From positions 1-54,975 of the forward strand of contig JABLXL010000056.1 of the NCBI GenBank assembly GCA_013178005.1: a stretch of DNA of 54,975 nucleotides, given 5' to 3'. The notes beneath the pieces were generated by a model, which had not been told where the DNA came from, did no database searches, and was given only the letters and a program-made list of their open reading frames with translations. Both the position numbers and the translations under genes were made by a program. Shown here piece by piece: positions 53,280 through 54,975 of this stretch. The DNA is from Actinomycetota bacterium (GTDB lineage: Bacteria > Actinomycetota > Geothermincolia > Geothermincolales > RBG-13-55-18). Every line of letters begins with the position of its first letter. The stretch's first letter is position 1.

Positions 53280-54434
53280 TTGGACAGCAAGTTCCTGAGG
53301 CTCGCGGAGGGATGTCACCTCAAGCGCCTGGAGGAGCCCTGCGCGTACCACGTCCCGCGCGACGAGTTGTACGAGCTTTCCGAGGAAGCCCTCGACTTCC
53401 TGGCCCGCTGCGATGGCGCCCGCACGGTCGCCGAACTACGCCCCGAGGAGGAGTTCCTGTCCTACTGCCTCGAGGAGGCCGTGCTGGAGGTCTCGGACCA
53501 TCCCCATCCCCGGGAGATCAGGATAGGGGTTAACGAGATCCCCTCCCTGCGCTACCTGATGGTGGAGGTCACCGATCGCTGCAACTTGCGCTGCCGGCAC
53601 TGTTACCTCGGAGACGCCGGCTCCACGGACCTGGACCCTGGAATCCTCCAGACGTTGCTGGACGACTTCGACGACATGGGAGGCCTCAGGCTGATGATCA
53701 CGGGCGGGGAACCCCTTCTTTACCCTGGATTCCCCGCGTTGAACGAGTCGCTTGCCGGACGCTCCTTCCGCCCCGTCCTCATCACAAACGGCACCTTGCT
53801 GCGCGGGGAGGATATGGAGAGCCTGAACTTCACGGAGATCCAGTTCTCGGTGGACGGTCTCGAGGATGGGCATGACTACCTTCGCGGCAGGGGTTCCTTC
53901 ACCAAGGTCATGGAATCCCTGCAAGCCGCGCTCTCCGCCGGCATTGACGTCTCGGTGGCCACGGTGATACACGCTCGCAACCTGGGCGAACTAGAGGGAC
54001 TGGGGGCTATGCTTTCGGAGATGGGCGTGTCGGCCTGGAACCTGGAATACCCGGTGGTGAGCGGCCGCCTGGAGGAAAACCCGGACCTGGTGCTGAAGCC
54101 CGAGGTGGCCGCTCCCTATTTCGAGCTGGAGTGGGGTTGGGGAGCGCACGAGGGAGCGCCCGGGTACGCGTGCGGAGCGCACCTGGCGGCGGTGGGGCCC
54201 GGCGGCTATCTGGTAAAATGTGGTTACTACCGCGACATCAGCGGCGGCCACCTGGGCAAGGGGTTGCGGCAGGCGTGGCGCGATCTGCCCAAGATGAAGC
54301 TGGAGGGGGAGTGCGCCTCGTGCGAACTGCTGGCGGAATGCGGGGGAGGTTGCCGCTTCCGCGCCCAGACCACCACCGGCGCCGCGGGGCCCGACCCCCT
54401 GATGTGCGCGCGCATGGGTCGCCACCTCAGGTAG
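53280..54434 (+). CDS. PqqD-like domain fused to radical SAM/SPASM peptide maturase
   Basis: The TTG at 53280 follows GGGGGAGG and gives 384 residues. Residues ~1-85 (HLKRLEEPCAYHVPRDELYE, LSEEALDFLARCDGARTVAE) fit a PqqD-like winged helix, that is a built-in leader-peptide recognition domain. The radical-SAM core follows, with CNLRCRHC at ~105-112, ITGGEPLLYPGF and ITNGTLLRGED. The SPASM end has ACGAHLAAVGPGGYLVKCGYY and CASCELLAECGGGC, with a further MCARM. These are the auxiliary cluster ligands of peptide-modifying SPASM enzymes. A 21-codon Cys-rich peptide gene with a strong RBS lies 304 bases downstream and is the likely substrate. No protease or transporter is present before the window ends. 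Confidence 0.85.
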   Translation: MDSKFLRLAEGCHLKRLEEPCAYHVPRDELYELSEEALDFLARCDGARTVAELRPEEEFLSYCLEEAVLEVSDHPHPREIRIGVNEIPSLRYLMVEVTDRCNLRCRHCYLGDAGSTDLDPGILQTLLDDFDDMGGLRLMITGGEPLLYPGFPALNESLAGRSFRPVLITNGTLLRGEDMESLNFTEIQFSVDGLEDGHDYLRGRGSFTKVMESLQAALSAGIDVSVATVIHARNLGELEGLGAMLSEMGVSAWNLEYPVVSGRLEENPDLVLKPEVAAPYFELEWGWGAHEGAPGYACGAHLAAVGPGGYLVKCGYYRDISGGHLGKGLRQAWRDLPKMKLEGECASCELLAECGGGCRFRAQTTTGAAGPDPLMCARMGRHLR

Positions 54435-54699
54435 AACCCGCGCGCATCACGCGGCGTTCGCGCCCACCTCGCTCGCGGCGTTCCCGACTAAAGGAACGGG
54501 TTGGTTATCATCACGCCGTGGATGGCCCGGTCATGGGATAGGTCCTCCGTGAGAAGGATGCCACATCGTTCAGGCGGGAGGCTTCCGCGCCGCTAGACCC
54601 GCAACACAAACCCTCTTCCGGTAAAACATGCATATTCCGCAGGGAGAAACGAGTGATCTACCGGTTGACGGTCGTGGTTTATCCCTTGCGGCGCGGGTG

Positions 54700-54705
54700 T
54701 ATAAT
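54700..54705 (+). promoter_or_regulatory. -10 element (TATAAT) before the 21-aa peptide gene
   Basis: A perfect TATAAT lies 34 bases before the ATG at 54739. A TTGACG at 54665-54670 is too far away (29 bases), so the -35 is uncertain. It suggests the peptide has its own transcript, separate from the maturase. Confidence 0.5.
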
Positions 54706-54738
54706 TTAATCAGGATCCACTACCAAGGAGGTGGTGAA

Positions 54739-54804
54739 ATGAGGATCACGAAGATCCCCAGACGGAAGGGCGGCACTTGCAAGTGCAATAAGAGCTGCGG
54801 TTAG
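54739..54804 (+). CDS. Candidate radical-SAM-modified precursor peptide (21 aa, Cys-rich)
   Basis: The ATG at 54739 is preceded by AAGGAGGTG with ideal spacing. The peptide starts MRITKIPRRK and continues GGTCKCNKSCG to a TAG, with three Cys spaced C-x-C-x3-C behind a basic leader-like part and a GG. A TATAAT lies 34 bases upstream and an intrinsic terminator follows 15 bases after the stop, so it forms a complete tiny transcription unit. It lies 304 bases behind a PqqD-like/radical-SAM/SPASM gene. The setting fits a RiPP precursor of the short Cys-rich, thioether-forming type. I cannot assign it to a named family. Cleavage after GG would leave a core of nine residues. Confidence 0.65.
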   Translation: MRITKIPRRKGGTCKCNKSCG

Positions 54805-54818
54805 CACGCCCTAACCGG

Positions 54819-54848
54819 GAGGGGGGCCTGCGGGCTCCCCTCTTTCTT
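54819..54848 (+). terminator. Intrinsic terminator of the 21-aa peptide gene, target of the group II intron
   Basis: GAGGGGGGCC (54819-54828) pairs with GGCTCCCCTC (54833-54842) in a 10-bp stem with one G-U and a 4-base loop. TTTCTT follows. The next base begins the intron. Confidence 0.8.
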
Positions 54849-54975
54849 GTGTGCCGGGCATGGCCGGCAGCTCGGGGGTGAAAGTCCCCTGTCCAACCTG
54901 ACGGAGGTGAAGGACTAGCGAAGCGCAAGGGCTCAATCGCGAGGTTGAGTCTGAAGGAAGCGCAGGAGCAAAACC
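54849..54975 (+). mobile_element. 5' end of a group II intron (bacterial class C-like), truncated by the window edge
   Basis: The segment begins GTGTGCCGGGCATGG, matching the GUGYG 5' end of group II introns. It continues with domain I hallmarks: the GGGGTGAAAGTCCCC hairpin, GGAGGTGAAGGACTAGCG, and GAAGCGCAAGG near the end. It starts immediately after the T-tract of an intrinsic terminator, the known insertion preference of bacterial class C (IIC) introns. The intron-encoded reverse transcriptase would lie beyond 54975. Confidence 0.75.

Follow-up and report, generated by a model that had tools for sequence, protein, structure and literature searches.

In a bacterium of a hot-spring lineage, a 21-residue peptide is encoded near a radical SAM/SPASM enzyme (hereafter the maturase) and a small cysteine protein. 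The question raised by this locus is whether so short a reading frame is a genuine gene and, if so, whether its product is the substrate of the enzyme. The window analyzed here, a stretch of 54,975 nucleotides, comprises one entire contig (G000:C52). The original prediction for this DNA described a compact RiPP system, in which a peptide with its own ribosome-binding site, TATAAT box and terminator lies behind the radical SAM/SPASM enzyme. These sequence features are correct, and the RiPP reading is well supported by the recurrence of the peptide beside maturases and by its conservation above that of the flanking DNA; the third conserved gene of the system, coding for the small cysteine protein, had been missed (Table 1).

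Gene organization and protein features of the cassette

Table 1. Positions of the cassette genes, protein motifs and expression signals in the window
Feature	Position	Strand	Evidence and remarks
Small cysteine protein, 77 aa	52856..53089	+	...LLCGDCPFYHHGEEENEECGSFRLLKALL...; invariant C33, C36, F38, C49, L55
Maturase (predicted N-terminal RRE/PqqD-like domain, radical SAM, SPASM), 384 aa	53280..54434	+	TTG start at 53280, stop at 54434; Pfam, AF2, Foldseek, orthologues
Predicted RRE/PqqD-like N-terminal domain of the maturase	53280..53510	+	AF2 secondary structure; weak Pfam PqqD; LKxLExPcVYxxxxDELYELS conserved
Radical SAM motif C101-x3-C105-x2-C108	53580..53603	+	Invariant in 30-member alignment
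SPASM cysteines C298, C314, C345, C348, C354, C358, C376	54171..54407	+	Sequence; alignment
-10 box TATAAT of the peptide gene	54700..54705	+	TATAAT/CATAAT in family-1 members shown
RBS hairpin CACTACC-AAGGA-GGTGGTG, containing the Shine-Dalgarno sequence	54718..54736	+	7 bp, one G-U
Putative precursor peptide MRITKIPRRKGGTCKCNKSCG, 21 aa	54739..54804	+	ATG at 54739, stop at 54804
Intrinsic terminator of the peptide gene	54817..54844	+	12-bp stem, then TCTT

The maturase contains the radical SAM motif CNLRCRHC, scores 68 bits against Pfam Radical_SAM and carries the full seven-cysteine SPASM pattern (C298-x10-G-x4-C314, C345-x2-C348-x5-C354-x3-C358, C376). Six of the seven SPASM cysteines are invariant (alignment A6), and C345 is displaced by one position (CxC) in some maturases. 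In the AF2 model (pLDDT 94.3, and 96–98 for residues 1–80), the N-terminal domain consists of four strands, followed by a helix, a strand, two helices and a strand. The best Foldseek matches in the PDB were SuiB (TM 0.70), SkfB and CteB, followed by BlsE, PqqE, and anSME; SkfB, second by fold, ranks first in the PDB when sequence profiles are compared. The predicted secondary structure and the full-length fold matches to the RRE-bearing SuiB, SkfB, and CteB support the presence of a PqqD-like RRE domain at the N terminus. The earlier assignment of such a domain thus holds at the level of the predicted fold, but sequence support is weak, with Pfam PqqD matching only two of 30 maturases (best E 0.04). 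No Pfam or NCBIfam family covers the maturase at its family cut-off, and the named maturase families were rejected as its identity because every NCBIfam model scored far below the cut-off (best, 100 of 525 bits). Genome G351 encodes a further maturase-like ORF of greater divergence (G351:C218:3797-4840, E 5.6e-44), possibly a paralogue with another substrate.

In all 28 cassette genomes among the 396 drawn, the gene just upstream of the maturase encodes a homologue of the small cysteine protein, and it frequently runs into the maturase start codon. These homologues are roughly 74–97 aa long, share the pattern C-x2-C-x-F...E-C and belong to no family in Pfam or NCBIfam. The AF2 model (pLDDT 89) comprises four helices, with the cysteines placed around the loop that joins helices 2 and 3, and Foldseek found no fold match for it in the PDB. 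A HiPIP or other known Fe-S fold is not claimed, since the only indications were a Pfam match with E 0.07 and a PDB match with E 0.2, with no Foldseek match. The metal site of this protein is inferred solely from its conserved cysteines. We know of no described RiPP system that includes an obligate small cysteine protein.

The peptide gene is preceded by AAGGAGG 7 nt upstream of its ATG, and in the family-1 members shown TATAAT or CATAAT is located about 30–40 nt upstream of the ATG. A consensus scan revealed no full sigma-70 promoter at the peptide gene, indicating that a good -35 element is absent. The 20 nt preceding the ATG are 94% identical in family 1, and in most relatives a GC-rich stem-loop follows the stop codon. 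The hairpin that encloses the Shine-Dalgarno sequence is kept in family 1, where local folding energies are about -9 to -13 kcal/mol, and synonymous changes are absent from the first 20 nt of the ORF. Together, these two features could serve in translational control or as a 5' mRNA stabilizer.

At 54849-54975 the contig stops within the 5'-terminal part of a group II intron (GTGTGCC...), matched by Rfam group-II-D1D4-3 at positions 54933-54975 (30.8 bits, just under the gathering score of 32). The intron lies immediately 3' of the peptide terminator, at a site that is empty in the sister genomes; class C group II introns are placed directly after terminators.

Conservation and distribution of the peptide and its partners

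The two closest relatives, ranked by maturase, belong to the same genus as the window. Across the genus and family the maturase is only 54–80% identical to that of the window, whereas the peptide is 90–100% identical; the peptides of family 1 are the same as that of the window or differ in one or two residues. In 13 family-1 copies the numbers of variable sites at codon positions 1, 2, and 3 are 1, 4, and 12 of 21, and pairwise differences comprise 330 synonymous versus 130 non-synonymous changes. Identity to the window in these copies is 0.91 within the peptide ORF versus 0.31–0.44 upstream of the ribosome-binding site and 0.58 after the stop codon. The codon-position pattern and the elevated identity of the ORF relative to its flanks indicate selection on the protein. 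According to the original prediction, the idea would have failed if the peptide were no better conserved than the flanking DNA or if homologous maturases lacked such an ORF nearby. Neither is the case: the ORF is present wherever the contig leaves room, except in G012 and G015, where it is found on another contig. The 90–100% identity within the family and the recurrence beside maturase homologues in about 30 genomes exclude a chance ORF; the peptide is encoded by a conserved protein-coding gene.

A comparison of 23 distinct peptides, each 20–21 residues long with three cysteines, showed that M1, I3, K5, C14, K15, C16, S19, and C20 are all invariant, including the complete C-K-C-x-x-S-C stretch. 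T13 is kept in 22 of the 23, and most of the peptides have R or K at positions 8 and 9. The CKCxxSC motif at the C terminus is likely the core, and the basic, beta-prone N terminus is compatible with a leader for the RRE. The GG preceding the core, pointed out in the original prediction, is kept only in the nearest families and is replaced elsewhere by SS, GS, SA, or SN. A double-glycine cleavage site is therefore unsupported, and GG was ruled out as a conserved cleavage site; no recognizable leader-cleavage motif was found in the peptide. No Pfam or NCBIfam family matches the peptide.

Co-occurrence was evaluated in 396 genomes of the phylum with thresholds of E <= 1e-40 for the maturase and E <= 1e-3 for the small protein. 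Both proteins occur in exactly the same 28 genomes, 27 of which also encode the peptide. In the sole exception, G029, the maturase lies about 400 bases from the contig end, on the side on which its relatives have a divergent peptide gene. Maturase orthologues are present in 22 of the 31 genomes of the class that were analyzed. A search of the 396 genomes with a peptide-only profile recovered four genomes outside the class, belonging to two other families, and in all four the maturase and small protein homologues are encoded directly upstream of the peptide. The weak peptide matches in G394, G042, and G022 (E about 0.007–0.009) were judged to be chance, since the first two are fragments of other reading frames and G022 has neither the maturase nor the small protein.

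A second draw from one of the outside classes yielded 12 genomes with the peptide, all of one family. Eight of its ten loci contain the maturase, small protein and peptide together; the ninth is truncated, with the maturase and peptide present, and the tenth starts immediately ahead of the peptide, where its contig ends. In G058 the coordinates place the peptide and the maturase side by side. Among 224 genomes drawn from the phylum to which a Peptococcaceae-labelled MAG belongs, there was a single match, G917 (Bacillota), with a complete cassette in the same order of small protein, maturase and peptide (MKIKKVSKRQSNLCKCHASC); its maturase is 45% identical to that of the window. No cassette was found in 301 genomes of the phylum that includes a Chloroflexi-labelled MAG, the Bacillota maturase had no match in plasmid records, and no such peptide accompanies distant radical SAM loci of other phyla (L081–L142, <=37% identity). 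The genome draws represent a fraction of each phylum, and the whole-collection scan relied on two patterns fitted to the class, so that relatives such as that of G917 would have been missed by it. Overall, the three genes travel together in single copy in at least three classes of Actinomycetota and in one Bacillota genome. The maturase tree largely matches the family grouping and is consistent with mainly vertical descent.

Most peptide genes follow the maturase on its 3' side in the same orientation, separated from it by -4 to 377 nt. Those of families 4 and 5 are divergent and lie 361–579 nt upstream of the maturase, and in G012 the gene resides on another contig together with its promoter, identical in sequence. 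A transposase-like ORF (L024 13529-14242; REP/Y1 type by eye) is found 3' of the maturase in G012. This varied placement indicates that the peptide gene is a unit of its own that is retained together with the enzyme. It also bears on the possibility that the short ORF is a Cys-codon attenuator, i.e., that it encodes a leader peptide regulating some downstream gene, with its own product being irrelevant. Three Cys codons followed by an intrinsic terminator, the hairpin over the Shine-Dalgarno sequence and the invariant first 20 nt would all suit such a role. However, no conserved same-strand gene lies downstream of the peptide, the next gene being often on the opposite strand, and the ORF tracks the maturase, persisting even when it is divergent or on another contig. 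The non-cysteine residues I3, K5, K15, and S19 are, moreover, invariant over two phyla, and we regard attenuation as a very remote prospect.

Gene neighbourhood and proposed function

In the loci compared, no exporter, peptidase or immunity gene is conserved beside the cassette. In the Bacillota locus (L173 3464-5911, 11034-13778) a heavy-metal P-type ATPase with HMA domains precedes the cassette, and FeoB and an iron-dependent repressor are encoded on its other side, a hint of a link to metals that comes from one genome only. In families 4 and 5 (L029, L030, L031, and L032) the cassette is located directly before mraZ and the division and cell-wall cluster; MraZ was confirmed by Pfam in L029 and assigned in the others via shared clusters. 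Four family-1 genomes encode near the cassette a secreted-looking X-Pro dipeptidyl-peptidase-like hydrolase, assigned by eye (L013 10812-13082, L014 13328-15244, L019 4955-6943, and L024 10062-11909), which could be a processing enzyme or a coincidence. In two genomes of family f27 (L145 9939-10928 and L148 2616-3602), the cassette is flanked by genes for multihaem cytochromes.

The best explanation, in which we have good though not complete confidence, is that the locus is a three-gene RiPP cassette of a family outside the libraries searched, operating by the following inferred mechanism. Transcription from its own promoter would provide the peptide in excess over the enzyme. The basic N terminus, M-(R/K)-I-x-K-x-x-(R/K)-(R/K), would dock on the RRE domain of the maturase. 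The C-terminal core would then enter the barrel, where one cysteine would bind an auxiliary SPASM cluster, and the 5'-deoxyadenosyl radical would abstract hydrogen from a residue nearby, giving rise to a Cys thioether or a different Cys-centred link within CKCxxSC. In CteB the leader forms a beta-strand on the RRE and a substrate cysteine reaches an open auxiliary cluster (PMC8326336). By this precedent a Cys-centred link within CKCxxSC would be expected, probably a thioether; such chemistry, already suggested in the original prediction, remains a plausible inference that was not tested here. By analogy with SCIFF, T13 could be the natural thioether acceptor, yet this residue is L in the Bacillota member, and a T13–C16 thioether was rejected as the universal link for this reason. 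The small cysteine protein may bind a metal or an Fe-S cluster and either help the maturase or carry the product. The product itself would serve, in or at the cell, as a conserved signal, a cofactor or a metal ligand and not as an antibiotic. No modification has been observed, and both the modification and the function of the peptide are inferred.

A signal, cofactor or metal ligand is favoured over an antibiotic by the fixed sequence, the absence of export and immunity genes and the mainly vertical descent. An enzyme of the same kind could nevertheless produce a sactipeptide- or bacteriocin-like antimicrobial: the sactisynthase SkfB ranks high among the structural and profile matches, and the peptide is cationic and Cys-rich. 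Antimicrobials usually diversify in sequence, while this peptide hardly varies, is encoded in single copy and lacks conserved exporter, immunity and peptidase genes, which leaves an antimicrobial role unlikely. There is likewise only a small chance that the peptide is an unmodified metal-binding peptide, such as a copper or Fe-S carrier, the target of the enzyme being elsewhere, for example in the small cysteine protein. The three invariant cysteines and Lys-rich ends agree with metal binding, as do the metal-related genes near the Bacillota cassette, but this context is limited to one genome, the small protein has no leader-like part, and a short gene beside an RRE-bearing enzyme is how RiPP substrates are typically arranged (PMC7470986).

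Under the preferred reading of a modified RiPP, the near-fixed sequence, single copy and largely vertical descent resemble PQQ, mycofactocin and SCIFF more closely than antimicrobials. The cassette looks like an undescribed family of enzyme-made peptides with a housekeeping role rather than one in warfare. A more specific proposal, tentative and with less than even support, sees in the mature CKCxxSC peptide a new cofactor or metal ligand of ribosomal origin and housekeeping function, which the small CxxC...C protein loads, carries or reduces. If this is true, the peptide would parallel PQQ and mycofactocin in function, with Cys and Lys in place of Tyr as its basis, and the small protein would be a new kind of partner.

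Comparison with known RiPP systems

By its kind the cassette is an RRE-dependent radical SAM/SPASM RiPP system, with peptide modification inferred. The best reading is that the RiPP family is new, being absent from the libraries and open-access literature searched, where no text contains both TCKC and radical SAM; the cluster may be included, unnamed, in the sequence-similarity network of PMC9062424. The peptide is too short for gene callers, the family spans at least two phyla, and the third protein of the cassette cannot be placed in any described family. With the consensus M(R/K)IxK...CKCxxSC located beside the maturase, other genomes can easily be searched for the family, and a 20-residue substrate makes in vitro chemistry straightforward.

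The SuiB (streptide) maturase is the best fold match, with the same arrangement of RRE, barrel and SPASM, but is only 15% identical, and its Lys-Trp crosslink is impossible in a peptide without Trp. The sactisynthases SkfB, StsB, and AlbA also act on Cys-rich substrates, and SkfB is the closest by sequence profile; unlike their systems, the cassette has no exporter or immunity genes and its peptide is invariant. The NCBIfam models of StsB (85 of 625 bits) and AlbA (59 of 850 bits) did not reach their cut-offs with the maturase.

The SCIFF/ranthipeptide systems (CteA-CteB, Tte1186) likewise pair a maturase composed of an N-terminal RRE, a radical SAM and a SPASM domain with a small, conserved Cys-rich peptide widely spread within its group. 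SCIFF cores also contain a CxCxxSC stretch. They differ in having about 45 aa and six cysteines versus 20–21 aa and three cysteines here, and to our knowledge SCIFF has no counterpart of the small cysteine protein. The SCIFF peptide model TIGR03973 did not match the peptide, its highest score at other sites being 14 bits versus a cut-off of 50, and TIGR03974, which we take to be the SCIFF maturase model, did not figure among the top 25 NCBIfam matches to the maturase. Membership in SCIFF was rejected on the lack of a TIGR03973 match and of six cysteines in about 45 residues. The wide spread of SCIFFs was taken as an argument against an antimicrobial role (PMC8326336), and a link to quorum sensing is cited there.

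PQQ and mycofactocin (PqqA/PqqD/PqqE; MftA/B/C) share with the cassette a very short, strongly conserved precursor, a SPASM maturase and a PqqD-type recognition domain. Their RRE is, however, a separate protein, whereas here it is predicted to be fused; the Glu/Tyr or Val-Tyr core is absent from a peptide without aromatics, and downstream cofactor enzymes are missing. The maturase remained far below the NCBIfam cut-offs of PqqE (57 of 381 bits) and mycofactocin (73 of 265 bits). RiPP families with nearly invariant precursors are few, and PQQ, mycofactocin and SCIFF are proven or suspected cofactors or signals.
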